Shown here one piece after another: positions 4,807 through 54,500 of a stretch of 64,000 nucleotides of DNA (positions are counted from its first letter, which is position 1; each line of letters opens with the position of its first letter). The stretch is taken from NCBI RefSeq assembly GCF_004340785.1, contig NZ_SLXS01000001.1, forward strand, positions 248,001-312,000, read 5' to 3'. The notes under the pieces are model-generated. The model saw nothing but the letters and a program-made list of their open reading frames with translations, was not told where the DNA came from and did no database searches. The translations under genes and the position numbers were made by a program. The stretch is from Tumebacillus sp. BK434. Its GTDB lineage: Bacteria; Bacillota; Bacilli; Tumebacillales; Tumebacillaceae.

Positions 4807-4830
4807 CCGGGAGATGGGGGAACAGGAAAG

Positions 4831-6873: not shown

Positions 6874-6941
6874 TTCAAGCCCTCACAAAGGAAGAATCGT
6901 GTTCATGTCGTAATCATCTTTAAGATATGGAATTATATTCA
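6874..6941 (+). promoter_or_regulatory. Conserved upstream element, copy 1
   Basis: TTCAA (6874-6878), 11 nt, GGAAG (6890-6894), 10 nt, ATGTCGTA (6905-6912), 24 nt, ATTCA (6937-6941). The same boxes with the same spacings precede three other NRPS genes in the window. The sequence just upstream is AT-rich (CATTTCTATTTA). The GGAAG and CGTA boxes resemble an ECF-type -35/-10 pair with a slightly short spacer. GAAT-N3-ATTC forms a small palindrome at the right end. It lies 40 bp before the chosen ATG, so the mRNA leader would be short. Confidence 0.65.
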
Positions 6942-6980
6942 CTTAGCTCTTTATACCTTTTGGAAGCAGGTGTCAGATCG

Positions 6981-32500: not shown

Positions 32501-35500
32501 GCGCGACGCTGGTGCTGGCGACTCAAGACCAACTGATGCCGGGTGACGGGCTCGCGGAGCTGATCCGCGAGCGGGAGATCACCGACGTGACGCTGACTCC
32601 AGCCGTCCTTGCCTTGCTGCCCGAACACGACCTGCCGTCCCTGCTTACTGTCGTCTCAGCCGGGGAAGTGTGCCCGGCCGAACTGGCAGCACGCTGGATC
32701 GGGGCCGGGCACACGTTTATCAACGCGTACGGCCCGACGGAAGCGACGATCGAAGCGACCGTCTCCGTCAACCCGGACACGTCCCGCGCACCCGACATCG
32801 GACGTCCGATTCCCAACGCCAGCGTGTACATCCTCGACCGCTCGCTGCGGCCGGTGCCGATCGGCGTTCCGGGCGAGCTCTACCTCGGCGGACCGGGGGT
32901 GGCGCGCGGTTATCTCAACCGCCCGGACTTGACGGAGCAGGCGTTCCTGCCCCATCCGTACCACATCGACCCGGACGAGCGGCTGTACCGCACGGGCGAT
33001 CGGGCGCGCTGGCTCCCGGACGGGCGCATCGAATCGCTTGGCCGACTCGACGATCAGGTGAAGATCCGCGGCTTCCGCATCGAAACCGGCGAGATCGAAA
33101 CCGCGCTGATGCGCGATCCAATGGTGGAAAAAGCGGTCGTGGTGCCGCACACCGACCATCTCGGTCAGAAGCGCCTCGCCGCCTATTATGTGGCGGCGGG
33201 AGGCGGAGCGGTCTCTGCGCAGGAACTGCGCGCCGCCCTCCGGCAGTCCCTGCCCGACTACATGGTGCCTGCTGTCTTCCACAGACTCGACGCCCTGCCG
33301 CTCAACGCCAGCGGCAAAGTCGACCGCCGCGCCTTGCCGGAGCCGGACGTCATGGGGGGCGCAGGGCGTGACTTCCAGCCGCCGCAGAGCGGGACGGAAC
33401 AAACGCTGGCCACGCTCTGGCAGGAATTGCTCGGCCGTGAGGAGATCTCGCGCCATGACAATTTCTTTGAGATCGGCGGCCACTCACTGTTGGCGACGCA
33501 GTTGGCGTCCCGCGTCCGCGAGATGTTCCGCGTCGAACTGCCGCTGCGCACGCTGTTTGAAGCGCCGACGATCGAACGCTTGGCCGAGCGGTTGGAAAAA
33601 ATGGGGCCGGGCGTCGCAATCGAGCCGGAGCTGACGGCGTTCGCCGCAGGTGCAACGGGCGCAGCACCGCTGTCATTTTCCCAACAGCGCCTCTGGTTCC
33701 TCGACCAGTGGGAGCCGGGGTCGGCCGCCTATAACATCGCCAACCTTGTGCGCTTGGAAGGTCTGCTTGATCTTCATGTGCTGGAGCAGAGCCTGGCCCT
33801 GTTGACCGAACGCCACGAGTCCTTGCGCACCGTCTTCCCGGCGCGGGACGGCGAGCCGTTCCAGCAGGTGCTGGCCGAACTTACGCTGCCGCTTGTGGTC
33901 ACCGACCTGCAAGGGCTGGCAAACGGGGAGGCCCAAGCTTTGCAGTCCGCACAGGCCGAATCCCGGCGCCCGTTCGATCTGGCGGCCGGCCCGCTTGTGC
34001 GCCTGCACGTGTACAAGCTGAGCGACACGGAGCATCTGCTGCTTCTGCTGATGCACCATATCATCTCCGACGGCTGGTCGATGCGCGTCTTCCTGCGCGA
34101 ACTGATCGCGCTGTACGATGCCCTGCAGCAGGGCGCACCGTCGCCGCTTGCACCGCTGCCTGTGCAATACACCGGTTACTCCCGCTGGCAGCGCCAACGC
34201 TTCCAAGGCGAAGCGATGGCGAAACAGCTCGACTACTGGAAACAGCAGCTCGGCGGCGAACTTCCGATCTTGGAACTGCCGACCGACCACCCGCGTCCGG
34301 CGGCTGCCACCGGCAGCGGCGCCAAATACGCGTTTGCGCTTTCCGCGCCGCTGACCGCCGCCGTCCGCCAGCTGAGCCAAGAGCAGGGGACGACGCTGTA
34401 CATGACACTGCTGGCTGCCTTTCAGACTTTGCTCGCCCGCTATACCGGGCAGAGCGACCTGCTGGTCGGCTCGCCGATCGCCGGGCGCAACCGTCAGGAG
34501 ATCGAAGGCTTGATCGGCTTTTTCGTCAACACGCTGGTCTTGCGCACCGATCTGTCGGGCAGCCCCGGCTTTGCCGAACTGCTGCAGCGGGTGAAACGGA
34601 CCACGCTGGATGCGTATGCCAACCAGGACGTGCCGTTCGAAATGCTCGTCGCCGAACTGCAGCCGGAGCGTGACAGCGGGCGCACCCCGCTGTTCCAGGC
34701 GATGTTCGCCTTGAACCACACGCCGGACACGGTGCAAGCAGTCTCGGGACTGATGCTGAGCGGCCTGCCGCTGGAAAGCGGCACCGCCAAATTCGACATG
34801 TCTCTGATGATGTACGAAACGGAAGATGTGCTCTACGCCGCCTTCGAATACAACGCCGACCTCTGGGACGAGGCGGCGATGGCGCGGATGAGCGGACATA
34901 TGCTCACGCTGCTCGAAGGCATGATCGCCGACCCAGAGCAGCCGGTCGGCACGCTGCCGCTGCTGACCGCAGCGGAAGCCCGCCAGGTGCTCCTCGAATG
35001 GAACGAGACGGCGACCGAGTACCCGCGCGAGTCGACCGTGCATGAGCTGGTCGAACATTTTGCCGCGACGACGCCGGACGCGGTCGCGCTGCTGTTTGAA
35101 CGGACGACCGTGTCCTACCGCGAGCTGAATGAAGCGGCCAACCGTCTGGCCCGCCGCCTGCAGCAGCTCGGCGTGGCACGGGGCGGGCTGGTCGGGATCT
35201 CGATCGAGCGCTCGATTGAGATGATCGTCGCCATGGTCGCCATCCTCAAGGCTGGGGCTGCGTTTGTGCCGTTTGACGTGACCTATCCGCACGACCGGCT
35301 GAGCTACATGTTCGAAGACACGCAAGTCGGCGTGCTGCTGACCCAAGCGCATCTGGCTGACCGCCTGCCGCAGCACAGCGCTACCGTTCTCATTGTCGAC
35401 AGCGATCTGACGGTCGCCGAAGAGAGCAGCGCCAACCTGCAGTTGGCGGTCGGCAAGGACGATGCGGCCTACGTCATGTACACCTCCGGCTCGACCGGCC

Positions 35501-37673: not shown

Positions 37674-37741
37674 TTCAAATTTAGTGGAGGGAAGTTGCCG
37701 CTACATGTCGTACTTATCATTTAGATGTAGAATCAAATTCA
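37674..37741 (+). promoter_or_regulatory. Conserved upstream element, copy 3
   Basis: TTCAA (37674-37678), 11 nt, GGAAG (37690-37694), 10 nt, ATGTCGTA (37705-37712), 24 nt, ATTCA (37737-37741). It is preceded by AT-rich CATTTCTATTTAAT. GAATCAAATTC at the right end is a GAAT-N3-ATTC palindrome. It lies between a strong terminator and the ATG at 37778, so this gene must have its own promoter close by. Confidence 0.7.
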
Positions 37742-37777: not shown

Positions 37778-40700
37778 ATGACAGAACATACAGGAAGTGT
37801 GATCGGAGCAGATACGGAAGAACTCTGGTACGACGACACGATTGAAGACATCCAGATGCCATTGTCATTTGCTCAACAGCGTCTGTGGCTCCTCGATCAG
37901 CTGGCTCCGGGGTCGCCGCTCTATAACATACCGCTGGTAATGCGTATGACCGGCAACTTGAACGTACAAGCGCTGGAAAAGAGCTACAACGAGATGATTT
38001 TCCGCCATGAATCGCTGCGCACCGTGTTTGCCCAGATTGACGGCGAGCCGGTGCAACTGATCCGGGAAGCCATTCCCCTTCCGATCAAGATCTTGGACAT
38101 CCAAGATGCAAAGGATGTGGAAGCGGAGATTCATGAGATTGCCGCAGCGGAGCGTGCCCGCCCGTTCGATTTGGAAAAAGGGCCCCTGTCGCGTCTTCAG
38201 TTGCTGAAATCCGGCCCGGAAGAGCATGTGCTGCTCCTGACGATGCACCACATCATTTCGGACGGCTGGTCGATGAACGTCTTCATCCAAGAGATCGGGT
38301 TGCTCTATCAGGCGTTTTCGACGGGACGGCCCTCGCCGCTCTCGGAATTGCCCATTCAATACGCCGATTACGCATGCTGGCAGCGCGACAATCTGCAGGG
38401 AGAGGCGCTGGAGGAAAAGCTGGCCTACTGGCGGCAGAAGCTGAGCGGCGAGCTCAGCGTCCTGCAACTGCCGACCGACCGGCCGCGCCCGGCGGTGCAG
38501 ACGCATCGCGGGCATACGCGCTACTTTTCACTGCCGATGACAGTGGTTGAGAAACTGCATGCCATCGGCATACGCGAACGGGCCACCTCCTATATGATCT
38601 GTCTGGCCGCATTCAAAATCTTGCTTAGCAGGTACAGCGGTCAAACGGATCTCTTGGTCGGCTCGCCGATCGCCGGGCGCAACATCACGCAGGTCGAGCC
38701 TTTGATCGGATTCTTTGTCAATACATTGGTCATGCGCACCGATCTGTCGGGCGATTTGACGTTTGTCGAGCTTTTGCGCCGCGTCAAGCAGACGACGGTG
38801 GATGCGTACGCTCATCAGGATATGCCGTTTGAAATGCTCGTCGCCGACCTGCAGCCGGAACGCAACCTGAGCCATTCGCCGTTGTTCCAAGTGATGTTTT
38901 CCCTGCAAAACACGCCGGCGGGCAAGCTGGAAGTCGCAGGCATCACCTTCCAGCAGATTGATGACGAGGGGGAAACGGCCAAATTTGACCTGACTTTGGG
39001 TCTGCAGGAAATGGAGGACCAGCTTTCGATCGTGTTCGAATACGATACCGATCTGTTTGACGAAGCGACCATCGTGCGGATGGGCGGGCATTTCTGCGAG
39101 TTGTTGACAGCCATCGCGGAGCAGCCGGACGCGAGAGTCGCAGCGCTTCCGCTGTTGAAGCCGGAGGAACTGCAGCAACTGCTGTTCGAGTGGAACCGCA
39201 ACGAAGTTGCTCTTCCGGAACTGCCTGTGCATGCGCTGTTTGAGCAGGTGGCGGCGCGGATGCCGGAGCAGACGGCGATTCGCTTTGCAGACCAGACGGT
39301 CACCTACCGCGAACTGAACGAGCGTGCGAACCGTCTGGCTCGCCATCTGCAAGCGAGCGGCATTAGGGCCGGGCAGTTAGTCGGCGTGGCGCTGGAGAGA
39401 TCGGTGGAACTGTATGTGGCGGTGCTCGCCATCTTGAAAGCGGGCGGTGCGTATGTGCCGTTCGACACCGCCTACCCGCAGGAGCGGCTGTCGTATATGC
39501 TGGAAGACACCGGCATCACCGCGATGCTGACCGTGCAAAAACTGGCAGCTCTGCTGCCGCCGCATGGTGCTGAGCTCTGCCTGCTGGACGATGAGCAGGT
39601 CGGCGCCGCCATCGCACAGGAAAGCGGTGCCGATCTGCCAATGGCTGCAGACTCCGACAGCGTGGCCTACGTGATGTACACGTCTGGCACGACGGGCAAA
39701 CCGAAGGGCATTCTGACGCCGCATCGCGGGATCGTGCGCCTCGTGTATGGAACGAGCGCGGCGCTGCCGTACACCGCTGACGATGTGGCGTTGCAATATG
39801 CGCCGATCTCGTTTGACGGATCGACGTTGGAAATCTGGGGAGCTTTGCTGAACGGTGCCACGCTGGTTGTGTATCCCCCGCAGCAGGCGTCTGTGGAAGA
39901 GATCGGACAGACGGTGCAGGAGCAAGGGGTGACGGTGCTGTTTTTGACGGCCGGGCTGTTCCACCAGATGGTGGATACCCATCCGGAAGGTCTGCGCGGT
40001 TTGCGTCTGCTGGCATCGGGCGGCGATGTGATCTCCGCGCCGCACGTGCAAAAAGTCGTCGGACAGCTCAGCATCCCCTTTGTGAATCTCTACGGGCCGA
40101 CCGAAGTGACCACTGCCGCCACGGCGCACCTGGTCGGTCATGCTGCGCAAGTCGGCACGACCCTGCCGATCGGGCGTCCGATCGCCAACACGACCGTCTA
40201 TGTGCTGGACGAACGCATGCAGCCGGTGCCAATCGGTGTCGCAGGTGAACTGCATGTCGGCGGGCAAGGGATTGCGCTGGGCTACCTGAACCGCCCGGAG
40301 CTGACAGCCGAAAAGTTTGTGTCAAGCCCGTTCTGTGCGGGGGAGCGACTGTACAAGACGGGCGATCTCGTGCGCTGGCTGGCCGATGGGACGCTGGAGT
40401 TCATGGGACGCAGCGACCAACAGGTGAAAATCCGCGGTTTCCGCATCGAGCCGGGCGAAGTGGAAGCGGTGATCGAGCAGCATCCGGCGGTGATCCGTTC
40501 GGTGGTGATGGCAAGAGAAGACGTGCCGGGGCTGAAGCGTCTTGTCGCCTATCTCATCCTTGATCCCGCAGCCGAGGCTGACACAGGCAGCTTGCGCGCC
40601 TTTTTGCAGGGCAAACTGCCCGACTACATGGTGCCAAGCGCGTTTGTCACCCTGGAGGAGTTCCCGCTGAATGCCAATCAAAAGGTCGACTACCGCGCCC

Positions 40701-43700
40701 TGCCGGCGCCGGAGGGGCGATTGGAGCAGACGGTCGAATACGTCGAGCCCCGCGATGCAGCAGAAGTAAAAGTGGCGGAGCTCTTTGCCAAGCTACTTGG
40801 GGTGCAGCAAGTGGGGGCACACGACCATTTCTTCGAGCTGGGCGGCCATTCGTTGCTCGGGGCGAGACTGGTGTCGCGCATCCGGGAGGAATTTGCGGCC
40901 GAACTGACGCTGCGGGCTCTGTTTGAACACCCGACCGTCGCCGGGCTGGCAAAACTGCTGACCGGTGATGATCCGAGCCTTGCGAACGTGCAAGTGCCGC
41001 CATTGGTGAAAGCGGAGCGCGGCGATACCATTCCGCTTTCCTACGCCCAGCAACGCCTGTGGTTCCTCGACCAACTCGCGCCGGACAGCAGCGCGTACAA
41101 CATGCCGGCCGCCTTCAAACTGCACGGGAAGCTGAATGTGGCGGCGGTGCAGCAAAGCTTTCGAGAGATCGTGCGCCGCCATGAGTCGCTGCGCACCAGC
41201 TTCCAACTGGTCGAGGAGACAGCGGTGCAAGTGATCTCCCCGCAGACGGAGCTGGAAGTGCGGATGATCGATCTGACCAACTTCGCTGACAGAGCAAGGG
41301 AGACAGAATTGCGGCGCCTGGCTGTCGAGGACGCGACCGCTCCGTTCGACTTGCAGCAAGGGCCGCTCTTGCGAGCAGCTTTGGTGCGCTTGGAGAGCGA
41401 AGAGCATGCGCTGCTCGTCAACATGCACCACATCATCTCCGACGGCTGGTCGATGAGCGTTCTGATCGAAGAGTTTGCGGCGCTGTACAGCGCGTTCTCG
41501 CAACACCAGCCTTCGCCGCTCAGCGAACTGCCTGTGCAGTTTGCCGACTATGCCATCTGGCAGCGTCGCTGGATGCAGGGGGAAGTCTTGCGCGACCAGT
41601 TGGATTACTGGAAATCCAAGCTCGGAGGCGACCTTCCCGTCCTGGAAATGCCGACCGATCCTGTCCCGGAACCGAACCGCGGCCAAAGTGCGCGCCAAGA
41701 GCTGACGTTGTCACCCAACTTGACCCGTCAGTTGACCAAGCTCAGCCATGAGGCGGGTGCGAGCCCGTTCATGACGCTGCTGGCCGCATTCAAAACGTTG
41801 CTGCACCGCTTGACCGGGCAGGAAGATCTCATCGTCGGCACACCGATCGCCGGGCGCGGTCTGGTGGAGACGGAAGGGCTGATCGGCTTGCTGTTAAACA
41901 CGGTCGCTCTTCGCACCGATCTATCAGGAGCCCCGACATTTCGTGAAGTGCTCGGCCGCGTGCGGGAGACGGTGTTGGAAGCGTTCGCCCGACAAGAGGT
42001 GCCGTTTGAAAAGATCGTCGAAGAGATTCAGCCTGACCGCAATTTGAACCGCAATCCGGTGTTTGACATCATGGTGAACTTTGTCAATACGCCGAGTCGT
42101 CATTTGATACTTCCGGGACTGACCCTCTCCGACCTGGAGAATGACGGTGCAACGGCTTCCAAATTCCAGATGTCCTTGTACATCTCGGAGTATGCAGAGC
42201 AATTGAACTTGAGTCTGGTCTACCAGTCCGCGCTGTTCTCCACGGAGCGGATGGAGGCGTTCATGGAGCAGTTCCGCCTGCTCTTGCAGCAAATCGCCAC
42301 GGAACCAAACGGCCAGGTGAACAACTACCCGCTGGTCACGGAAGCGGCCCGCTCCAAACTGCCCGACCCTGCTGCTCCGATCCAGGAACCGCAGTATCCG
42401 ATCGTTGGCGAGCTGATTGCCGCATGGGAACGGCGCGCGCCGGAACATCCGGCCGTGACGCAAGGAGCGCAGCAATGGAGCTATCGGTACCTGCTCGAAC
42501 GTGCGAACGAACTTGCCGGTCAGCTCGCAGCCTGCGGAGTTCGCCGCGGCGATGCAGTCGCAGTCGTCGGCACGCGGAGTTTCGGTACGATCACAGCGAT
42601 GGTCGGCGTGTTGAACAGCGGCGGTGTGCTGGTGCCCGTCGACGCAGCTCTCCCGAAGCAACGACAGCAGGTGATGGTAGAGCAATCCAAGGCAAAACAT
42701 CTGATCTCCATAGGCGCGGACAACGACGGGTGTGCGCTCGATATCACCGGGGTTGATCCGATGACGGGACAGATCCTCGGTGCACCGGCGCCAGCTCAGA
42801 CTGCACTACCCGACTTGTCACCCGACGACCCGGCCTACATCTTTTTCACCTCTGGTACCACGGGCGTGCCAAAAGGCGTTCTGGGCACACACAAAGGCCT
42901 CAGCCACTTCCTTTCGTGGCAGCGCAATACGTTTCATATCGGACCGGAAGACCGCGTGGCGCAACTGATCCATCTGTCGTTCGATGCGGTGTTGCGCGAC
43001 GTGTTCCTGCCGCTGACCAGCGGGGCGACGCTCTGCTTGCCCGACGTGACGGACGATCTCGGCGGCGATGTGATCCTCCCATGGCTGGAGCGCACAGGCG
43101 TCACCGTTCTGCACACCGTGCCCTCGGTCGCTCAAGCATGGACCACAGATCCTCCGCAAGCGATCACCTTGCGTTCCTTGCGCCATCTGTTTCTGGCGGG
43201 TGAACCGCTGACCGATGTGCTGGTGAATCGTCTGCGCAGTGCGTTCCCGGAGATCGGGGACATCATCAATCTGTATGGCCCGACGGAGACGACGATGGTC
43301 AAATGCTGGTACGTCGTGCCGGAACGGCCGATAGCAGGCATTCAACCGGCAGGCGATCCGTTCCCGGAAACACAAGCGCTGGTGCTGGGCGCAAACGGAC
43401 AGCTGGCCGGCATCGGCGAGCAGGGCGAAATCGTCCTGCGCACACCATTTTGCACGCTCGGCTATGTCAACGCGCCAGATGAAAACAAGCGATTTGCGCC
43501 GAATCCGTTCCGCCCGCACGACCCGGCCGATTTGCTCTATTACACGGGTGACAGAGGGCGCTACCGCCCCGATGGCAGCTTGGAAATCCTGGGACGCGTC
43601 GACGATCAGGTCAAAGTGCGCGGCGTGCGGATTCAACTGCACGAAGTGTCGGCGGTGCTCTTGCGTCACGAAGCGGTCGACGCCTGCGCCGTCATCGACT

Positions 43701-46700
43701 GGAAGGACGAGAGCGGAGCGACGCAGCTCGCCGCTTACAGCGTGTTAAAACCGGGTCTTGTTGTGACCGCAGAAGACATTCGCGCCCATTTTGAGCATCA
43801 TCTTCCGGCGGCGATGGTGCCTGCGGTGTTCCTGTTCCTGGAAGAGCTGCCTCGTTTGGCAAACGGCAAAGTCAATCGAAAAGCGCTGCCCAAGCCGGAG
43901 CGCGGTGGCAGCAGCGCCGACGCCTACGCTGCGCCGCGAAACGAAGTCGAAGCAATGCTTGTCGCGATCTTCTGTGAAGTGCTGAAGCTGGACCGTGTCG
44001 GCGTGCACGACAACTTCTTCACGATCGGCGGACATTCGCTGACGGCTACGCAGGTCGCTTCACGCATTCGAAAGCGTTTCGAGGTGGAGATGCCGCTGAG
44101 CCTCCTGTTCGAACGGCCCACGGTTGCCGCGCTGGCGGTAGAAGTGGAGCGCCGTCAGCATGCGCTGCAGCCAGACAGTTGGAACAACGCGTCGATCGCA
44201 CCGGTTCCGCGGGACGGAACAACTGCGTTGCCGTTGTCCTACGCTCAGCAGCGCCTGTGGTTCCTCGACCAGCTTGAGCCTGGCAGCATCGCCTACAACG
44301 TCCCGTTTGGCGTGCGGATCACCGGTGCGTTGAACACAGATGTGCTGGCGCGGACGATCAATGAGATCGTCGCACGTCACGAAGCGCTGCGCACCAATTT
44401 CCATGCCACAGGCGGGCTGGCCGTCCAGGTGATCGCCGCCGAGCGGATGCAAGCCCTGCCGGTCATCGACTTGCAACAAATGGCGGCCGCGGAAAAAGAC
44501 GCCCAACTTGACGAATGGACCGTCCGTGAAGTGAACACCCCCTTCAACCTGGCGACCGATGCGCTGCTGCGCACCACGCTGCTCAAGCTCGGCCCGGAGG
44601 AGCACGTCTTGCTGATCACCTTCCACCATATCATCGGCGACGGCTGGTCATTTGGCGTGTTTGCGCAGGAGTTGACCACGATTTATGCCGCCTTCGAAAA
44701 CGGGCGCCCGTCGCCGCTGGAAAGACTGCCGATTCAATACGCAGATTTTGCAGTCTGGCAGCGGGAACAATTGCAAGGCACGGGCAAAGAGGCGCTGCTT
44801 TCGTATTGGAAACAGCGCTTCGACGGCGACATCCCCGTCCTCGACTTGCCGACCGATCGTCCACGACCGGCTGTGCAAAATTTTGCCGGCGATACGGTGC
44901 GGTTCGAACTGTCGGGTGACCTTCGCGATGCGCTGCTCGCACTCTCGCAACAAGAAGGCGTCACGTTGTACATGACCTTGCTCGCCGCGTTCAACACGTT
45001 GCTGTTCCGGTACAGCGGACAGGAAGACATCGTGCTTGGTGCGCCGATCGCTGCCCGCACCCGGGCGGAGATCGAGCCTTTGATTGGCTTTTTTGTCAAC
45101 ACCCTCGCGCTGCGCACCGATCTGTCCGGCAACCCGAGCGTCCGCAGCTTGTTGCAGCGGGTGCGTGCAACAACGCTCGATGCGTTTGCCCATCAGGATC
45201 TGCCCTTGGAAATGCTGATTGAGGAGCTCGGGATCGAGCGTGATCTGAGCCGGAGCCCCTTATTCCAAGTCGCGTTTTTGCTGCAAAATACACCGGCTGC
45301 AGCACCGGCCGAGACCGAGGTGACGCTGGAGCCGTATGAAGCGCAGCGCACGACGTCCAAGTTTGACTTGACTCTGATGTTGTCGGAGAGCGAACAGGGG
45401 CTGAGTGGCAATCTGGAATATCGCACCGATCTTTTTGACAGGTCGACGGTAGAGCGCTTGGCAGCACACTTTGGCCAGCTGCTGGCCGCCATCGTGGAGA
45501 ATCCTGATGGTTTGATCGAGCACCTGCCGCTGATGTCGCGGGACGAAGAGCGGATGATCCTCGACGATTGGAGCGGGTCGACGGCCGACTATCCGCAGGA
45601 CGCCTGTCTGCACAGCCTGTTTGAACAGCAGGCAGAGCGCACGCCGGATGATACGGCAGTCCTGTTCCACGACCGGTCGCTCACTTATCGCGAACTGAAC
45701 GAAAAAGCGAATCAACTGGCGTACGTCTTGCAGCGGCGCGGCTTGCAAGCGGAGCAGCCGGTCGCCATTCTGATGGACCGCGCCCCGGAGCTGATCGTCT
45801 CGATCTTGGCTGTGCTCAAGGCGGGAGGGGCCTACGTGCCGCTCGATCCGTCCGTCCCGGCGGAGCGCCTCGCCTACATGCTGAGTGATTCACAAACGTC
45901 TCTGCTCCTGACGCAGCAGCGTCATTTGAACGCCTTGCCTGCGCACAGCGCGCAGGTGATCGCCGTTGACGGAGAGTGGGAGCGCCTCGCCTTGGAAGAC
46001 GTTGCGAATCCGCCTCTCGATCTGGTGTCGACACAGCTCGCCTACATCATTTACACCTCCGGTTCCACCGGACGTCCGAAAGGCGTGCTGCTGCAGCATG
46101 CCGGAGTATGCAATACGGTTTACCAGCACCGGAAGATTCTGCAGATTGGCGCGAGACGCCGCATGCTGCAATTTTCTTCCCCTTCGTTCGATGCGTCCGT
46201 TCTGGAGATTTTCACCGCGCTGACTTCTGGCGCCGCGCTGGTGATGGCGAGCAAAGAGCAGTTGATGCCAGGCGCCGGTCTTGCCGAACTGATTCGCGGT
46301 CAAGAGATCACCGACGTGATCCTCACGCCGTCCGTTTTGGCGCTGCTTCCCGAACACGACCTGCCGTCGCTTTGCACCGTCCAGTCGGCCGGGGAAGCTT
46401 GCCCGGCTGAGCTGGCCGCGCGGTGGATTCGTACCGGCATCATGTTTATCAACGGGTATGGTCCGACCGAAACGTCGATCGAAGCGACGTTCTCGGTGAA
46501 TCCGAACTCTTCGCACACTCCTGACATCGGACGTCCCATTCCGAATTGTCAAGTGTACATCCTCGACCGCCATCTGCGGCCGGTGCCAGTCGGAGTGCAG
46601 GGCGAGCTCTATATCGGCGGGCCCGGAGTGGCGCGCGGGTATCACAATCGCCGTGATCTGACGGAACAGTCCTTTTTGCCGCATCCGTATCATGCGGATG

Positions 46701-49700
46701 CGAACCAGCGGCTCTATAAGTCGGGTGACATGGCACGCTGGCTGCCAAGCGGCAAAATCGAATATCTCGGCCGCCGCGACCAACAGGTGAAGATACGAGG
46801 TTTTCGCATTGAAACGGGTGAGGTAGAAGCCGTCTTGACGCGACACCCGCATGTTGAAAAAGCGGTCGTTGCGCCGCATACCGACCGAGGTGGACAAAAG
46901 CGCCTGGTCGCCTATTATCTCGCTGCGCCGGAAACAAAGAGCAGCGCACAGGAACTGCGCGCCTTCCTCGGGCATTCGTTGCCCGACTATATGGTACCGG
47001 CGGTCTTTTTGAAACTGGATGAACTGCCGCTCAGTTCCAGCGGGAAAGTCGATCACCGGGCATTGCCTGCGTTACACGACATTCACAGCGAGCGGCGCGA
47101 GCTGCTGCCGCCTCGGACCGCAACTGAGCAAACGCTGGTGCTGCTCTGGCAGGAGCTGCTCGCAATCGGTGCGATCTCTAGGGACGACAATTTCTTTGAG
47201 GTGGGCGGGCATTCGCTGCTGGCCACACAGTTAGTTTCCCGCATTCGTGAGACGTTTGACATCGAATTGCCGCTGCGCACACTCTTTGAAGCACCGACAA
47301 TCGAAACGCTCGCCTTGCGCTTAGACGAGCTGCACCCGGGCACTGCGGGCGGACCTGAACTTGCCGCATTCGCCGAAGCGGGTGCCGATGATGCACCGCT
47401 GTCGTTTGCCCAGCGGAGACTTTGGTTCATCGATCAGTTGGAGCCGGGGTCGTCCGCTTACAACATCGTGAATCTGATGCGGCTCCAGGGTCCGTTCGAC
47501 TTCGAGGTGTTTGAAAACAGCTTTGCTGAACTGGTCAAGCGCCACGAATCTTTGCGCACCGTCTTCCCGTTCCAAATGGGAGAACCGACCCAGAACGTGC
47601 TGGACGAGTTCCCGCTCCCGCTGGTGCTGGTCGATCTGCAAGGCATGGCGAACGGTGAAGCGCTGGCTTTGCAAGCGGCACAAACTGAAGCGGAGCGCCC
47701 CTTCGACCTTGCACAGGGTCCGCTGGTGCGCCTGCACGTATACAAGCTGCAGCCAGACTCGCACCTGCTGCTGCTGGTGATGCATCACATCATCTCCGAC
47801 GGCTGGTCGATGGGCGTCTTGGTCCGCGAACTGGCTGCGCTGTACGATGCGTTCCGAGCAGGGAATCAGTCACCGTTGGCGCCTTTGCCGCTCCAATACT
47901 CGGGATATTCCCGCTGGCAGCACCAGCGATTCCAAGGCGAGTGGATGCAGCAGCAGCTCGGCTATTGGAAAAGACAGCTCGGCGGCGAACTGCCAGTCTT
48001 GGATCTTCCGACCGACCGTCCGCGCCAGCCCGCACGGAGCGCCATGCAGGCAGGTCGCTGCGCCTTTGAACTTGACGCACCGCTCACGCAAGCGATCAAG
48101 GAACTGGGCCGTAAGCAGGGAGCAACGTTGTATATGACCTTGCTGGCCGCCTTCCAAACCCTGCTCTTCCGCTACAGCGGGCAGACCGATATCTTGGTTG
48201 GCTCGCCGATCGCGGGGCGCAGCCACAAGGAGCTTGAGCAGCTGATCGGATTTTTCATCAACACGCTGGTTCTGCGTACCGACCTGTCAGGAGATCCCGG
48301 CTTTGCGGAGCTGTTGCAACGGGTGGTGCAAACGACGCTCAATGCGTACGCCAACCAGGATGTCCCGTTCGAGATGCTGGTCGCCGAGCTGCAGCATGAG
48401 CGCGAGAAAGGGCGGACGCCGCTGTTCCAAGCGTTATTCGTCTTGCAAAACACCCCTGAATCAGGTCAGGAATTTCCGGGACTGGTGCTGACGAGCATGC
48501 CGCTTGAAAGCACCACGGCGAAATTTGAACTTTCCCTGATGATGGCGGAGAGCGAATCGGGGCTGCAGGGTGTTTTCGAATACAGCTGCGACCTATGGGA
48601 TGCGGGTACCATCGAGCGGATGAGCGGCCATCTGATCAAGCTGCTCGAGAGCCTGACAGCCGACCCGGCTCAGCCTGTTGGCAAACTGCCGATGCTGACC
48701 GCAGCGGAAGAGCGCCAACTGCTCATCGATTGGAATCAAACGGGGACCGGCTGCTCCGGCGAATCGACCGTTCACGAACTGGTGGAGCGGTATGCAGCAA
48801 CCACGCCGTCCGCCATCGCCCTGATGTTTGAACAGGAGACCATGTCCTACCTCGATCTCAACGAGCGGGCGAACCGTCTGGCGCACCGCTTGCAAAAGCT
48901 TGGGATCGGGCAAGGCGGACGAGTCGGGATTTACATGGAGCGTTCGTTCGAGATGATCGTGGCGATGGTTGCCATTCTGAAAACGGGTGCAGCCTATGTT
49001 CCTTTTAACGTCAACGATCCGCAAGAGCGGCTGCTCTACATGCTCGAAGACACGCAAGTGGGAGTGCTGCTCACGCAGCAACGTCTGGCCGACCGGCTGC
49101 CGAAATGTGAAGCAGCCACAGTCAGTGTGGACATCGCAGGGGAATTTGCTGACGAATGCGCTGCGAATCTCGAGGTTCCGGTCAGCAAAGACGCGGCTGC
49201 CTACATCATGTATACCTCTGGATCTACCGGACAGCCCAAAGGAGTCGAGGTGGCGCATCGGGGGATCGTGCGGCTTGTGCGTGAAGCCGGGTACGCGGAG
49301 TTTACGTCGGAGGATGTGTTCCTGCAATTCGCCCAGATCGCCTTCGATGCCTCGACGCTGGAAATCTGGGGTGCGCTGCTGAACGGAGGCAAACTGGCGA
49401 TCTTCCCGCCGCATCAGGCATCGCTCGCCGAACTGGGTGCTGCGATCGAAGCGTATGGCGTGACCACTTTATGGTTGACCGCCGGTCTGTTCCACAGCAT
49501 GGTCGAGCATCATCCGGAAGGACTGCGCGGTCTGCGCTGGCTCCTCGCCGGTGGTGACGTCTTGTCGGTTCCGCATGTGAAAAAAGCGCTGGAGCATTTC
49601 GACGGCTGCTTGATCAACGGCTACGGCCCCACGGAAAATACGACATTTACCACTTGCCATCAAGTGGTTGATCCAAGCCGGCTTGAGCAGACCGTTCCGA

Positions 49701-51322
49701 TCGGACGTCCGGTCGCCAACACGACCGTCTACGTGCTGGATGCAGCGGAACAGCTTGTGCCGGTCGGTGTTCCCGGTGAGCTGTACACGGGCGGTGCAGG
49801 TCTGGCGCTGGGCTATTTGAATCAGCCTGAGCTGTCTGCCGAGAAGTTTGTTGCGAACCCGTTTGGCGAAGGCAAACTGTACCGAACGGGTGATCTGGTG
49901 CGCTGGATGCCGTGCGGCGAACTGGAGTTTATCGGCCGCATCGACTCGCAAGTGAAAGTCCGCGGTTTCCGGGTGGAGATCGGTGAGATCGAAGCTGCGC
50001 TCGTCCAGCATCCTTGGATTCGGGAGGCGGTGGTGATCGTCCGCGAGGAAGGAGGGAGTAAGCGTCTCGCCGCCTATGTGACTGCCGAAGGAATGGGAGA
50101 GCTTGCTATGTCCGACCTGACCGGCTTCTTGCAACAGACCTTGCCAGACTATATGATCCCGGATGTCTTGGAGGTGCTGGCGGACCTTCCGCTCAACCCG
50201 AACGGCAAGGTTGACCGTAAAGCGTTGGCCGCCCGCTCCGTCTCCTATGAGCGCGAAGCAGTTTTTGCCGCGCCGCAGGACCGCATCGAACTGGAACTGC
50301 TGCAGCTGTGGAACGAACTGCTCGGGGACGGCTCATATGGCGTCACCGACGACTTCTTCAAAGTCGGCGGACATTCGCTGCTCGCCGTGCGCCTGATCGC
50401 GCAGATCGAAAAGCGCTTCGGGCAGAAACTTCCTTTGTCTGTCCTCTTTGATGAAGGGACGATCCGCCGCCTGGCCGCACGTTTGCGTCAAGGCGGGCAA
50501 GCGCTTCCTGCCACACCGCTCGTCACGATCCAGTCGGGTCTGCCGGGCACAGCGGAGACGCCGCTGTTCCTCGTCCATCCGGTCGGCGGCAGCGTATTTG
50601 CCTACCTCGACCTCGCCCGCGAACTGGGCTCTGACCAGCCAGTCTACGGCTTGCAGGCTCGGGGGCTGGAGGACCACCGCGCACCGCTTGTGGTGATGGA
50701 GGAGATCGCGGCGGAGTACGTCGCGGCGATCCGCACCGTGCAGCAGAGCGGGCCGTACCGTCTCGGCGGCTGGTCGCTTGGCGGCTCCATCGCGTTTGCG
50801 ATGGCGGGGCAACTGCGTGCGCTGGGCGAAGAGGTGGAACTGCTCGCCTTGATCGATGCCAGAGCGCCGCTCGCCGACTACCAGCGCGAGATGGACGACC
50901 AAGAGTTGCTGCTCGCCTTCGCCCGTGACTTGGCGGGGCAGCACGGACTCCAGCTGGAAGAACTGGCCCATGCGGAACTGTCGCTGCGTGAGGATGCGCT
51001 GGCCGCCTTGCTCGCACTGGCGCGGGAGCATCAGGTGTTCGGCTCCGACCTCGGACTTGAGGACTTGCAGCGGCTGCTCAACGTCTTCCGCAGCAATTAC
51101 ACAGCTTTCAACCGCTACGCCGCTCTGCACCGTGCGGAGCGCGTGCTGCTGATTCAGGCAGAAAACGCCGAGTCTGACGCGTACGGCTGGACGGAGCTGG
51201 CGGAAGAAGTGGAAGTCCACCGCATCGGCGGCAACCACTTCACGCTGCTCCAGGCGCCGCATGTGCAAGAGCTGGCCGGCATCATGAAACAGCATCTGCT
51301 CAAGCTGAAGTCCAGCGTCTAA
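37778..51322 (+). CDS. Four-module NRPS with thioesterase, 4514 aa
   Basis: GGAGGTG lies just before the ATG. The N-terminus carries the ELWYDDTIEDIQMP leader shared with the 6981 and 51512 proteins. Module 1: C HHIISDG; A (483-981) D-G-L-F-L-S-L-T-A, unassigned; T Ser1025. Module 2: Z-type A (1538-2043) D-A-R-H-F-A-L-M-V; T Ser2087. Module 3: C HHIIGDG; A (2610-3101) D-A-L-I-Q-A-G-I-E, unassigned; T Ser3146. Module 4: A (3665-4158) D-A-L-W-L-A-G-T-F, close to the valine code D-A-F-W-I-G-G-T-F; T Ser4200. TE (4248-4514): Ser4333 in GWSLGG, nearly identical to the TE of the 17515 gene. Modules 3-4-TE are the counterpart of modules 5-6-TE of that gene but with changed pockets. Predicted product: X-Z-?-Val. 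Confidence 0.95.
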   Translation: MTEHTGSVIGADTEELWYDDTIEDIQMPLSFAQQRLWLLDQLAPGSPLYNIPLVMRMTGNLNVQALEKSYNEMIFRHESLRTVFAQIDGEPVQLIREAIPLPIKILDIQDAKDVEAEIHEIAAAERARPFDLEKGPLSRLQLLKSGPEEHVLLLTMHHIISDGWSMNVFIQEIGLLYQAFSTGRPSPLSELPIQYADYACWQRDNLQGEALEEKLAYWRQKLSGELSVLQLPTDRPRPAVQTHRGHTRYFSLPMTVVEKLHAIGIRERATSYMICLAAFKILLSRYSGQTDLLVGSPIAGRNITQVEPLIGFFVNTLVMRTDLSGDLTFVELLRRVKQTTVDAYAHQDMPFEMLVADLQPERNLSHSPLFQVMFSLQNTPAGKLEVAGITFQQIDDEGETAKFDLTLGLQEMEDQLSIVFEYDTDLFDEATIVRMGGHFCELLTAIAEQPDARVAALPLLKPEELQQLLFEWNRNEVALPELPVHALFEQVAARMPEQTAIRFADQTVTYRELNERANRLARHLQASGIRAGQLVGVALERSVELYVAVLAILKAGGAYVPFDTAYPQERLSYMLEDTGITAMLTVQKLAALLPPHGAELCLLDDEQVGAAIAQESGADLPMAADSDSVAYVMYTSGTTGKPKGILTPHRGIVRLVYGTSAALPYTADDVALQYAPISFDGSTLEIWGALLNGATLVVYPPQQASVEEIGQTVQEQGVTVLFLTAGLFHQMVDTHPEGLRGLRLLASGGDVISAPHVQKVVGQLSIPFVNLYGPTEVTTAATAHLVGHAAQVGTTLPIGRPIANTTVYVLDERMQPVPIGVAGELHVGGQGIALGYLNRPELTAEKFVSSPFCAGERLYKTGDLVRWLADGTLEFMGRSDQQVKIRGFRIEPGEVEAVIEQHPAVIRSVVMAREDVPGLKRLVAYLILDPAAEADTGSLRAFLQGKLPDYMVPSAFVTLEEFPLNANQKVDYRALPAPEGRLEQTVEYVEPRDAAEVKVAELFAKLLGVQQVGAHDHFFELGGHSLLGARLVSRIREEFAAELTLRALFEHPTVAGLAKLLTGDDPSLANVQVPPLVKAERGDTIPLSYAQQRLWFLDQLAPDSSAYNMPAAFKLHGKLNVAAVQQSFREIVRRHESLRTSFQLVEETAVQVISPQTELEVRMIDLTNFADRARETELRRLAVEDATAPFDLQQGPLLRAALVRLESEEHALLVNMHHIISDGWSMSVLIEEFAALYSAFSQHQPSPLSELPVQFADYAIWQRRWMQGEVLRDQLDYWKSKLGGDLPVLEMPTDPVPEPNRGQSARQELTLSPNLTRQLTKLSHEAGASPFMTLLAAFKTLLHRLTGQEDLIVGTPIAGRGLVETEGLIGLLLNTVALRTDLSGAPTFREVLGRVRETVLEAFARQEVPFEKIVEEIQPDRNLNRNPVFDIMVNFVNTPSRHLILPGLTLSDLENDGATASKFQMSLYISEYAEQLNLSLVYQSALFSTERMEAFMEQFRLLLQQIATEPNGQVNNYPLVTEAARSKLPDPAAPIQEPQYPIVGELIAAWERRAPEHPAVTQGAQQWSYRYLLERANELAGQLAACGVRRGDAVAVVGTRSFGTITAMVGVLNSGGVLVPVDAALPKQRQQVMVEQSKAKHLISIGADNDGCALDITGVDPMTGQILGAPAPAQTALPDLSPDDPAYIFFTSGTTGVPKGVLGTHKGLSHFLSWQRNTFHIGPEDRVAQLIHLSFDAVLRDVFLPLTSGATLCLPDVTDDLGGDVILPWLERTGVTVLHTVPSVAQAWTTDPPQAITLRSLRHLFLAGEPLTDVLVNRLRSAFPEIGDIINLYGPTETTMVKCWYVVPERPIAGIQPAGDPFPETQALVLGANGQLAGIGEQGEIVLRTPFCTLGYVNAPDENKRFAPNPFRPHDPADLLYYTGDRGRYRPDGSLEILGRVDDQVKVRGVRIQLHEVSAVLLRHEAVDACAVIDWKDESGATQLAAYSVLKPGLVVTAEDIRAHFEHHLPAAMVPAVFLFLEELPRLANGKVNRKALPKPERGGSSADAYAAPRNEVEAMLVAIFCEVLKLDRVGVHDNFFTIGGHSLTATQVASRIRKRFEVEMPLSLLFERPTVAALAVEVERRQHALQPDSWNNASIAPVPRDGTTALPLSYAQQRLWFLDQLEPGSIAYNVPFGVRITGALNTDVLARTINEIVARHEALRTNFHATGGLAVQVIAAERMQALPVIDLQQMAAAEKDAQLDEWTVREVNTPFNLATDALLRTTLLKLGPEEHVLLITFHHIIGDGWSFGVFAQELTTIYAAFENGRPSPLERLPIQYADFAVWQREQLQGTGKEALLSYWKQRFDGDIPVLDLPTDRPRPAVQNFAGDTVRFELSGDLRDALLALSQQEGVTLYMTLLAAFNTLLFRYSGQEDIVLGAPIAARTRAEIEPLIGFFVNTLALRTDLSGNPSVRSLLQRVRATTLDAFAHQDLPLEMLIEELGIERDLSRSPLFQVAFLLQNTPAAAPAETEVTLEPYEAQRTTSKFDLTLMLSESEQGLSGNLEYRTDLFDRSTVERLAAHFGQLLAAIVENPDGLIEHLPLMSRDEERMILDDWSGSTADYPQDACLHSLFEQQAERTPDDTAVLFHDRSLTYRELNEKANQLAYVLQRRGLQAEQPVAILMDRAPELIVSILAVLKAGGAYVPLDPSVPAERLAYMLSDSQTSLLLTQQRHLNALPAHSAQVIAVDGEWERLALEDVANPPLDLVSTQLAYIIYTSGSTGRPKGVLLQHAGVCNTVYQHRKILQIGARRRMLQFSSPSFDASVLEIFTALTSGAALVMASKEQLMPGAGLAELIRGQEITDVILTPSVLALLPEHDLPSLCTVQSAGEACPAELAARWIRTGIMFINGYGPTETSIEATFSVNPNSSHTPDIGRPIPNCQVYILDRHLRPVPVGVQGELYIGGPGVARGYHNRRDLTEQSFLPHPYHADANQRLYKSGDMARWLPSGKIEYLGRRDQQVKIRGFRIETGEVEAVLTRHPHVEKAVVAPHTDRGGQKRLVAYYLAAPETKSSAQELRAFLGHSLPDYMVPAVFLKLDELPLSSSGKVDHRALPALHDIHSERRELLPPRTATEQTLVLLWQELLAIGAISRDDNFFEVGGHSLLATQLVSRIRETFDIELPLRTLFEAPTIETLALRLDELHPGTAGGPELAAFAEAGADDAPLSFAQRRLWFIDQLEPGSSAYNIVNLMRLQGPFDFEVFENSFAELVKRHESLRTVFPFQMGEPTQNVLDEFPLPLVLVDLQGMANGEALALQAAQTEAERPFDLAQGPLVRLHVYKLQPDSHLLLLVMHHIISDGWSMGVLVRELAALYDAFRAGNQSPLAPLPLQYSGYSRWQHQRFQGEWMQQQLGYWKRQLGGELPVLDLPTDRPRQPARSAMQAGRCAFELDAPLTQAIKELGRKQGATLYMTLLAAFQTLLFRYSGQTDILVGSPIAGRSHKELEQLIGFFINTLVLRTDLSGDPGFAELLQRVVQTTLNAYANQDVPFEMLVAELQHEREKGRTPLFQALFVLQNTPESGQEFPGLVLTSMPLESTTAKFELSLMMAESESGLQGVFEYSCDLWDAGTIERMSGHLIKLLESLTADPAQPVGKLPMLTAAEERQLLIDWNQTGTGCSGESTVHELVERYAATTPSAIALMFEQETMSYLDLNERANRLAHRLQKLGIGQGGRVGIYMERSFEMIVAMVAILKTGAAYVPFNVNDPQERLLYMLEDTQVGVLLTQQRLADRLPKCEAATVSVDIAGEFADECAANLEVPVSKDAAAYIMYTSGSTGQPKGVEVAHRGIVRLVREAGYAEFTSEDVFLQFAQIAFDASTLEIWGALLNGGKLAIFPPHQASLAELGAAIEAYGVTTLWLTAGLFHSMVEHHPEGLRGLRWLLAGGDVLSVPHVKKALEHFDGCLINGYGPTENTTFTTCHQVVDPSRLEQTVPIGRPVANTTVYVLDAAEQLVPVGVPGELYTGGAGLALGYLNQPELSAEKFVANPFGEGKLYRTGDLVRWMPCGELEFIGRIDSQVKVRGFRVEIGEIEAALVQHPWIREAVVIVREEGGSKRLAAYVTAEGMGELAMSDLTGFLQQTLPDYMIPDVLEVLADLPLNPNGKVDRKALAARSVSYEREAVFAAPQDRIELELLQLWNELLGDGSYGVTDDFFKVGGHSLLAVRLIAQIEKRFGQKLPLSVLFDEGTIRRLAARLRQGGQALPATPLVTIQSGLPGTAETPLFLVHPVGGSVFAYLDLARELGSDQPVYGLQARGLEDHRAPLVVMEEIAAEYVAAIRTVQQSGPYRLGGWSLGGSIAFAMAGQLRALGEEVELLALIDARAPLADYQREMDDQELLLAFARDLAGQHGLQLEELAHAELSLREDALAALLALAREHQVFGSDLGLEDLQRLLNVFRSNYTAFNRYAALHRAERVLLIQAENAESDAYGWTELAEEVEVHRIGGNHFTLLQAPHVQELAGIMKQHLLKLKSSV
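42391..43905 (+). repeat. Z-type adenylation domain, copy 5
   Basis: A domain of module 2 in the 37778 gene. The N-terminal part (RSFGTITAMVGVLNSGGVLVPVD) has diverged most among the six copies. From FTSGTTGVPKGVLG onward it matches the others and keeps the pocket code D-A-R-H-F-A-L-M-V. A8 uses the QLHEV variant seen also in copies 4 and 6. Confidence 0.8.
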
Positions 51323-51408: not shown

Positions 51409-51476
51409 TTCAAGTTTAGCGGAGGGAAGTTGCCGCTTCATGTCGTACTTATCATTAAGGTGTAGAATCACATTCA
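51409..51476 (+). promoter_or_regulatory. Conserved upstream element, copy 4
   Basis: TTCAA (51409-51413), 11 nt, GGAAG (51425-51429), 10 nt, ATGTCGTA (51440-51447), 24 nt, ATTCA (51472-51476). It has the GAAT-N3-ATTC palindrome (GAATCACATTC). It is very like copy 3, as expected from duplication. No copy precedes the two downstream genes, which follow with 12-bp gaps and so share this promoter region. Confidence 0.7.
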
Positions 51477-51511
51477 ATTAGAGCTCATTGTCTCTTATGG
51501 AGGTGCGGATC

Positions 51512-54500
51512 ATGATGGAAGAACTCTGGTATGATACCGAGATCGAAGACATACAGATGCCGTTGTCGTTTGCACAACAGCGTCTGTGGCTCCTCGATCA
51601 GTTGGCTCCGGGATCGCCGCTCTATAACATACCGCTGGTGATGCGTCTGACCGGCAACTTGAACGTGCAAGCGCTGGAAAAGAGCTACAACGAGATGATC
51701 TTCCGCCATGAATCGTTGCGCACCGTGTTTACCCAGATCGAGGGCGAGCCGGTGCAACTGATCCGGGAAGCCATTCCCCTTCCGATCAAGATCTTGGACA
51801 TCCAAGATGCGAAGGATGTGGAAGCGGAGATTCATGAGATTGCCGCAGCGGAGCGTGCCCGCCCGTTCGATTTGGAAAAAGGGCCTCTGTCGCGTCTTCA
51901 GTTGCTGAAATCCGGCCCGGAAGAGCATGTGCTGCTCCTGACGATGCACCACATCATCTCCGACGGCTGGTCGCTGAACGTCTTCATCCAAGAGATCGGC
52001 CTGCTCTATCGGGCGTTTTCCACGGGACGGCCCTCGCCGCTCTCTGAGTTGTCCATTCAATACGCCGATTACGCATGCTGGCAGCGCGACAACCTGCAGG
52101 GGGAGGCGCTGGAGGAAAAGCGGGCCTACTGGAGGGAGAAGCTGGGCGGCGAGCTCAGCGTCCTGCAGTTGCCGACCGACCGGCCGCGCCCGGCGGTGCA
52201 GACGCATCGCGGGCATGTGGTCGACCTTTCGGCGCCCCAGGCGCTGATGGAGAAACTGCATGCCATCGGGCGGCGCGAAGGCGCCACCGCCTATATGGTC
52301 TATCTGGCCGCCTTCAAAGTTCTGCTCAGCCGGTACAGCGGCCAAACCGATCTGCTGGTCGGCTCGCCGGTCGCCGGGCGCAACAACACGCAGCTGGAGC
52401 CGTTGATCGGCTTTTTCATCAATACGTTGGTCATGCGCACCGATCTGTCGGGCGACGTGACGTTCACCGAGCTGTTGCGCCGCGTCAAGCGGACGACGCT
52501 GGATGCGTTCGCCCATCAGGATGTGCCGTTTGAGATGCTCGTCGCCGACCTGCAGCCCGAGCGCAACTTGAGCCATTCCCCGCTGTTCCAAGTGATGTTT
52601 GCCCTGCAAAACACGCCGGCGGGCAACTTGGAAGTCGAAGGCATCACCTTCGAGCAGCTCTTGGTGGAGGGCGATACGGCCAAATTCGATCTGACATTGA
52701 ACCTGCAAGAGCTGTCCGACCGGCTGCATATCACGTTCGAATACAATGCTGATCTGTTTGACGCAGCGACCGTTCTGCGGATGGGCGGGCATTTCGTCCG
52801 GCTGCTGACCGCCATCGCGGGGCAGCCCGATGCGGAAATTGCGGCACTGCCGCTTTTGTCGGCCGTTGAGACGGAACGGGTGCTCATCGAGTGGAACCGC
52901 ACCGCGGAAGATCTCCCGGAGCTGCCCGTTCCTGCGCTCTTTGAACAGCAGGCTGCAAGGACGCCGGAGAAGACGGCGCTGCTCGTTGCCGGGCAGACCG
53001 TCACGTACCGCGAACTGAACGAGCGGGCCAACCGCCTGGCGCGCCGCCTGCAAGCGATCGGCATTCGGTCCGGACAGTTGGTCGGCGTCGCGCTGGAGCG
53101 TTCGGCGGAGCTGTACATCGCGCTGCTCGCCATCGGGAAGGCGGGTGCAGCTTATGTGCCTTTTGACACGTCCTACCCGGCCGAGCGCCTGTCGTACATG
53201 CTGGCAGACAGCGGCGTCGAAGCGATGCTGACCGTGCAAAAGCTGGCCGGGCTGCTCCCGGCGCACGATGCTCAGATGCTTTTGCTGGACGATCCGCAGA
53301 CCCGCTCCGCTCTCGCACAGGAAAGCGGGGCCGACCTGCCCCTGTCGGCGACGGCCGACAGCGCAGCGTATGTCATGTACACGTCCGGCACTACGGGCAC
53401 GCCAAAAGGCATTTTGATCCCGCATCGCGGGATTGTGCGCCTCGTCTATGGGCCGCGTGCGGCGTTTCCCTACACGGCAGACGATATGGCGATGCAATAC
53501 GCGCCGATCTCGTTTGACGCCTCGACCTTAGAAATCTGGGGCGCACTCCTGAACGGGGCGACGCTGTTTGTGTATCCGCCGTATCAAGCGTCAGTCGAAG
53601 AGCTTGGGCAGGCGGTGCAATATCAGGGAGTGACGGCGCTGTTTTTGACGGCGGGGCTGTTCCACCAGATGGTCGATACCCATCCCGAAGGCCTGCGCGG
53701 TCTGCGCCTGCTCGCGTCGGGCGGCGATGTGATCTCCGCGCCGCACGTACAAAAAGTCGTTGGGCAGCTCGGCATCCCGTTCTTCAACCTCTACGGGCCG
53801 ACCGAAGTCACCTCCGTCACCACCGCGCACGAAGTGCGGACGGCAGCCGAGGCGGGCACGAGCCTGCCGATCGGGCGTCCGATCGCCAACACGACCGCCT
53901 ATGTGCTGGACAGCCGGATGCAGCCGGTGCCGATCGGCGTTGCCGGCGAATTGCATGTCGGCGGGTCGGGACTGGCGATCGGCTATCTGAACCATCCGGA
54001 GTTGACGGAGCAGAAGTTTGTGCCAAGCCCCTTTCAACCGGGCGAACGCCTGTACAAGACGGGCGACCTCGTGCGCTGGCTGGCCGACGGAACGTTGGAA
54101 TTTAGGGGCCGCCTCGATCAGCAGGTGAAGATCCGCGGGTTCCGCATCGAGCCGGGTGAGGTGGAAGCGGCGATCGAGCAGCATCCGGCGGTGCTGCGCT
54201 CCGCCGTGATGGCTCGCGAAGATGTGCCGGGGCTGAAGCGGCTGGTCGCCTACCTGATTCTCGAGCCGGCGGCAGATTGTGACGCAGTCAGCCTGCGCGT
54301 CTTTTTGCTGGACAAGCTGCCTGATTACATGGTGCCAAGCGCGTTTGTGGTGCTGGAAGAATTCCCGCTGAACGCCAACCAAAAGATCGACTACCGCGCC
54401 TTGCCTGTGCCGGAGGGCGGACTTGAACGGACGGCCGAGTACGTTGCGCCGCGCACGGAAGCAGAAGTCAAAGTGGCAGCGCTTTATGCGGAACTGCTCG

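Follow-up and report, generated by a model that had tools for sequence, protein, structure and literature searches.

The analysed window was a stretch of 64,000 nt from Tumebacillus sp. BK434. The draft genome of this strain (hereinafter referred to as G000; 4.65 Mb in 32 contigs) carried a high NRPS load as a whole, with 111 Condensation-domain matches. Four thioesterase (TE) domains were found in the window, each ending one of four consecutive NRPS lines (A to D, window 6927-61957), which were arranged as follows:

6927-17339: line A, three modules, TE-ended
17515..37587, plus strand: line B, NRPS gene of 6690 aa with six C-A-T modules and a TE
37778..51322, plus strand: line C, NRPS gene of 4514 aa with four C-A-T modules and a TE
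51488-57955 plus 57968-61957: line D, 2+1 modules, TE-ended

Pfam assigned four Condensation, four AMP-binding, four PP-binding, and one Thioesterase domain to the 37778 gene, and the motifs and domain order of both the 17515 and 37778 genes were those of modular NRPSs with a C-terminal type I thioesterase. Every module of lines A-D parsed as C-A-T, and module order was related among the lines. An epimerisation domain is expected to appear as an additional C-type match; the domain parse of lines A-D gave no extra match of this type. The window yielded no Rfam match at gathering scores.

Upstream of line A, an A-T-C-A-T gene was followed by a PKS module (KS-AT-KR-ACP) and a stand-alone condensation domain. 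Genes for the PKS module, the condensation domain, and A-T-C-A-T were located at window 517-6273 and at G000 C1:243139-248514, and similar genes precede the lines of a relative of the same genus (G001). The PKS and stand-alone C genes before line A are possibly a shared starter, and we infer that each line forms its own unit and has a partner in common with the others. A similar LWYD...DI..MP.SFAQ stretch opens lines A, C, and D as well as the two G001 lines, while the N-terminus of line B is of a different, LSPEKRALL type. Modules 1 and 2 of the 17515 gene (codes DGGFVGVTI and DVQFYAHVV) had a best whole-module match of only 0.61 in nucleotides among the G000 modules and the G001 cluster. From these low matches and the deviating N-terminus, the front of line B seems to be of another origin. 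The code DARHFALMV, with R at position 239 and a FDAVLRD-type motif, was common to six modules over all four lines (modules 2 and 3 of the 6927 gene, 3 and 4 of the 17515 gene, 2 of the 37778 gene, and 2 of the 51488 gene). Six pocket codes, including DARHFALMV, had no occurrence in the literature searched.

G001 was the only one of 60 related genomes with a TE above 49% identity (71%), and the only one of six relatives to pass 1e-70 in a family search. Among the best 80 of 408 matches in a TE scan of named relatives, from which records of the window's own genome were possibly left out, the closest reached 45% across the greater part of the domain and 55% in short stretches. In place of lines A-C, G001 carries one five-module gene with a TE, followed by a line D homologue; thus two TE-ended lines are present there versus four here. 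The codes of the five modules were DALFAGLTA, DVRHFALLA, DARHFALMV, DAMTVAAIE, and DVFWLGATF, of which the fourth was identical to that of line B module 5 and the fifth matched that of line B module 6 except for one residue.

The analysis focused on the last two modules of lines B and C. The initial annotation had regarded modules 3 and 4 of the 37778 gene as counterparts of modules 5 and 6 of the 17515 gene, and had placed the former at 44230-50490, in agreement with the computed 44234-50491:

30505..33600, plus strand: line B module 5, code DAMTVAAIE, paired with line C module 3 (slot 1)
33670..36756, plus strand: line B module 6, code DVLWLGATF, paired with line C module 4 (slot 2)
44234..47329, plus strand: line C module 3, code DALIQAGIE
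47399..50491, plus strand: line C module 4, code DALWLGGTF
46043..46495, plus strand: A core (A3-A5) of line C module 3 with its pocket, 35/151 residues differing from line B
49202..49660, plus strand: A core (A3-A5) of line C module 4 with its pocket, 36/153 residues differing from line B

From the NRPS-bearing stretches of the genome, 63 NRPS-like open frames were kept and 136 C-A-T modules were aligned, so that the DNA identity of seven sub-segments per module could be compared with 135 other modules. Module 3 of the 37778 gene and module 5 of the 17515 gene were reciprocal best matches in all seven sub-segments. Module 4 found module 6 as its best match in 7/7 and was found by it in 6/7, the exception being A5-A8, where another module reached 0.77 versus 0.76 for module 4 in DNA; by amino acids module 4 was ahead (0.81 versus 0.72). 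The modules are thus counterparts, as proposed.

The codes of the first pair were as previously read, whereas those of the second (given as DVLWVTATF and DALWLAGTF) had been misread at two positions and were corrected to the forms listed above. As claimed, the codes differed within the pairs, at 4/9 positions in slot 1 and 2/9 in slot 2. As an internal control, other modules of the genome yielded at the same columns DASTVAAVC, DAWQFGLID, DFWNIGMVH, and DAFWLGGTF, which we take to be canonical codes. By its codes, slot 1 would contrast a Tyr-like code with something else, and slot 2 a Val-like code with a narrower pocket. The paired modules are predicted from their codes to load different residues.

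It had further been proposed that the change was concentrated in the pocket. Pocket positions were defined by the 9-residue code and by an 8 Angstrom set comprising 31 of 34 positions (210, 213, and 214 left out). Pooled over the two pairs, 6/18 code positions and 275/981 positions elsewhere in the A domain differed (p = 0.60); in the 8 Angstrom set, 14/62 pocket positions had changed compared with 267/937 elsewhere, which is the ordinary rate. Neither set was enriched over the rest of the A domain. Divergence was instead uniform along the modules, the pattern that the initial annotation had set against its own proposal: no breakpoint inside 44234-50240 exceeded block permutations in a max-chi scan (1170/2000 were as high as the observed value). 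In slot 1, amino-acid difference between lines B and C was 0.32 in the C domain, 0.37 in the A N-terminal segment, 0.23 in the A core, 0.26 in the rest of A, and 0.40 in T plus linker. The respective values in slot 2 were 0.31, 0.37, 0.24, and 0.23, followed by 0.18 in T, a segment already partly within the TE tract described below. The A cores were thus less diverged than the C domains in both pairs. The segment-wise dN/dS between lines B and C was 0.11-0.32 in all module segments and 0.11-0.16 in the A cores; with neither a value above 1 nor an excess at pocket positions, positive selection on the pocket was not indicated by this comparison. Code differences were also compared with all pairs at 70-75% A identity among the fetched G000 modules and the G001 cluster. 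These 39 pairs, four of which were the focal comparisons, had a mean of 1.33 code differences, and 4/39 had at least four; the four differences of slot 1 are high against this null and the two of slot 2 ordinary. The candidate of an A-core swap in the focal pairs was rejected, with no nearer donor among the 135 other modules.

Between line B and G001, 2/62 pocket positions of the 8 Angstrom set had changed, compared with 202/937 elsewhere. The pocket share of differences between lines B and C (14/267) was above this ortholog control (2/202; p = 0.018); with the 9-residue code only, the shares were 6/275 and 1/203 (p = 0.25). Because the pocket surroundings were near-frozen between line B and G001 and changed at the ordinary rate between lines B and C, one of the two lines seems to have had its pocket constraint removed or redirected, and a specificity shift between them is plausible. 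Thus, of the earlier idea that the peptides diversified after duplication, the wider part, divergence in specificity, keeps some support from the larger set, while the focus on the pocket and the young age of the duplication do not.

Among outside modules, those nearest to slot 1 in A-core identity carried the Tyr-like DASTVAAVC, closer to the code of line B and G001; in the whole-A tree, the nearest outside branch was DAHDTGQVS with weak support, and the grouping of line B with G001 was weak too. In slot 2, the nearest outside A cores carried the Val-like DAFWLGGTF, closer to line C, and the line B-G001 grouping was strong (98.6/98, A tree). These neighbours give a hint that the code change may have gone opposite ways in the two slots.

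The TEs behind these modules behaved differently. They had been described as almost identical, which was confirmed over 817 nt (97.8% DNA identity; 4/259 residues differing), although the assembly is a draft of 32 contigs and a 0.8 kb repeat can mislead assembly:

36748..37564, plus strand: homogenised TE tract of line B, 97.8% to 50483-51299
50483..51299, plus strand: homogenised TE tract of line C, 97.8% to 36748-37564

The max-chi scan placed one breakpoint at window 50338, where identity rose from 0.722 on the left side to 0.954 on the right (0/2000 block permutations as high). The start of the tract was patchy, high identity setting in from about 50270-50340 within the T domain, and its end was sharp, before the stop codon; in the next stretch (intergenic plus 60 coding bases), 173/211 ungapped columns were identical. 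The odd residue among the four TE differences was in the 17515 copy in three cases and in the 37778 copy in one, a pattern compatible with transfer in either direction.

Synonymous divergence (NG86) also separated the TE from the modules. The dS between lines B and C was 0.84-1.38 in nine module segments, intermediate in the last T domain that follows them (0.37), and 0.06 in the TE, compared with 0.66 and 0.65 between G001 and the TEs of lines B and C, respectively. In the module segments, dS between lines B and C exceeded that between line B and G001 in 8/9 cases, the exception being the A N-terminal segment of module 3 (0.84 < 0.91), and that between line C and G001 in 7/9. Exceptionally strong purifying selection on the TE, acting without any exchange, would fit the small number of residue differences, but silent sites are alike too and the same TE has accumulated a dN of 0.16 to G001 along with the high dS; of the explanations weighed here, this is the least credible.

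Phylogenies agreed with this division. In the TE tree, lines B and C grouped together at 100 with G001 next at 81, and the AU test rejected both trees parting lines B and C (p = 0.0005 and 0.003; 25 log units). For the whole slot-2 A domain, both trees without the grouping of line B and G001 were rejected (p = 0.007 and 0.011; 21 log units), as they were for the slot-2 A core (p = 0.020 and 0.013); for the A N-terminal segment or the rest of A of this slot alone, joining lines B and C was not rejected. In slot 1, this joining was rejected for the A N-terminal segment (p = 0.005), while for the whole A domain the best tree placed line C with G001 and no tree was rejected. Both C domains leaned to line C with G001 without significance. 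In short, the TE and slot-2 A-domain trees rejected each other, with slot 1 mostly and the C domains undecided, and the paralogues were nearer to each other than to G001 within the tract only, as judged against this one relative; both patterns are those of concerted evolution. Lineage-specific residues numbered 141 in line C versus 66 in line B in the A domains, and 85 versus 112 in the C domains (p = 5e-7). Because of these opposite excesses, the modules are possibly mosaic and may have mixed histories.

The most parsimonious interpretation places the split of the modules before the separation from G001 and the homogenisation of the TEs after it. This timing rests on one outgroup, the only carrier of the cluster among the relatives searched, and horizontal transfer of the cluster between species may be an alternative source of it.

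Taken together, we favour, with a probability of roughly 0.8, the reading that lines B and C are old paralogous lines with evenly diverged modules, whose TEs were later homogenised between the 17515 and 37778 genes. The last two modules of both lines would derive from one two-module ending, and the paired modules would have diverged evenly, with purifying selection acting on them, until their DNA identity was about 72%, their pockets coming to differ during the drift. Later, in this lineage, a TE tract of about 0.8 kb would have been copied between the genes by homologous recombination, either as gene conversion or as a crossover with the same result, both of which leave the same sequence. It was probably exchange between the 17515 and 37778 genes themselves that caused the likeness of their TEs.

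The initial annotation had reasoned from the near-identical TE to a young duplication, a history in which the entire ending was copied recently and its pockets then changed fast under selection. The code differences within the pairs (4/9 and 2/9) and the raised pocket share in the larger set (p = 0.018) would suit such a history. It would leave unexplained why module silent sites are far apart (dS 0.84-1.38) when those of the TE are not (0.06), and it agrees neither with the pocket's lack of enrichment relative to other A-domain positions (p = 0.60) nor with an A-core dN/dS of 0.11-0.16; we regard it as very improbable. By dS, trees, and breakpoint, the TE is a separate tract homogenised later. 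Conversely, the lines could be young and their modules, rather than the TE, replaced, with A and C domains recombined in from elsewhere. Intragenomic A-core exchange is well described (Baunach et al., 2021; PMC8097286), and the A and C domains here do give different branch patterns; nevertheless, no nearer donor was present among 135 other modules, the pairs agree in slot and order across all segments, and no breakpoint lies inside the two modules, which leaves replacement improbable, if less so than a recent duplication.

Homogenised pieces were also found elsewhere. The first C domains of lines C and D shared a near-identical start, with a mutual dS over their first 240 aligned residues of 0.05-0.26 versus 0.48-1.38 to G001:

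37844..38515, plus strand: start of first C domain, line C, 94.9% to 51545-52216
51545..52216, plus strand: start of first C domain, line D, 94.9% to 37844-38515 (672 nt)

Modules 2 and 3 of line A, which have one code, had 583 nt at 94.7% in common. For all 12 ungapped near-identical tracts of at least 200 nt and at least 94% identity in the fetched NRPS DNA, the two copies lay less than 14 kb from each other; with the length limit lowered to 100 nt there were 25 tracts, short tandem repeats among them, all within 20 kb. The TE tract was the only one of the 12 to fall in a TE (16 TE domains were parsed). Since all long tracts lay close together, local exchange or duplication is common here, and the TE tract is one case of it. 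The longest near-identical tract in the fetched DNA (1504 nt, 97.7%) was shared by neighbouring modules of another NRPS gene (L017; G000 C1:791613-793116 and 794793-796296).

The junctions B|C and C|D were alike as well (with 60 coding bases, 173/211 ungapped columns identical) and contained a conserved intergenic element:

37684..37721, plus strand: conserved intergenic element before the 37778 gene, 38 bases
51419..51456, plus strand: conserved intergenic element before the 51488 gene, two mismatches to the 37684..37721 copy

The 38-base element occurred twice in the window at up to three mismatches. Across three genomes of the genus, a 31-base part of it at the same tolerance was found twice in G000, once in G001 (before the line D gene), and not in G002. 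A terminator-like hairpin was scored at C|D and not at B|C, where inspection of the letters shows a similar sequence; neither junction yielded a sigma-70-like promoter.

The direct TE copies (817 nt, 97.8%) are 13.7 kb apart, one just before the 37778 gene and one at its end, and the near-identical C-domain pair (672 nt, 94.9%) is equally spaced. Such an arrangement raises the tentative, rather unlikely idea of line C as a removable and re-insertable cassette. If so, recombination between the TEs would excise or multiply a four-module line, leaving complete genes and a conserved junction; TE homogenisation would be the mark of recurrent exchange, the number of parallel lines would vary among strains, and the two-line arrangement of G001 would fit such a loss.

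For the reading of NRPS duplicates, the locus illustrates a trap: a near-identical release domain does not date the modules upstream of it. The TEs here were made alike after module divergence, so their similarity cannot date the modules. The locus is also a compact natural example of nearly the same TE following diverged modules that carry different codes. This suggests that TEs may be exchangeable between lines, which would be useful for engineering. Further, four adjoining TE-ended lines, compared with two in the relative, offer a small system for the gain, loss, and re-specification of peptide lines.

Several described systems are comparable. In microcystin McyA2, the pocket is known to change both by point mutation and by gene conversion (Shishido et al., 2013; PMC3640908); of point substitution and conversion, the former is favoured here. 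The product change was shown by chemistry for McyA2, whereas the focal lines are known from sequence alone. As in the NRPS genes described for the NRPS recombination landscape (Baunach et al., 2021; PMC8097286), intragenomic recombination shapes diversity at this locus, but the A-core exchange described there was not detected in the two focal pairs.

For the wollamide/desotamide genes wolG1 and wolG2, a pathway bifurcation has been described in which duplication was followed by A-domain replacement (Booth et al., 2022; PMC9205934). Like them, the 17515 and 37778 genes are two paralogous NRPS genes of one cluster whose paired modules differ in specificity, here by prediction. As reported, wolG1 and wolG2 resemble each other except for a marked fall in identity at the A domain, for which the genome contains a donor, whereas identity here was even through A and rose sharply in the TE. 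With A cores less diverged than C domains and no nearer donor among 135 modules, the case lacks a defining feature of wollamide-type replacement.

Concerted evolution by gene conversion has been described for PKS and NRPS clusters (Medema et al., 2014; PMC4256081), in which internal recombination makes domains of one cluster more alike than their counterparts in related clusters, as is the case here. Examples given there include KS, AT, A, and C domains, and its main text does not use the word thioesterase; at this locus, in contrast, the terminal TE of two parallel lines was homogenised and the A and C domains of the same modules escaped. A limited literature search met no precedent for TE homogenisation, which does not imply its absence from print. 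The case belongs with known concerted evolution, and its particular point is the TE as the homogenised piece.
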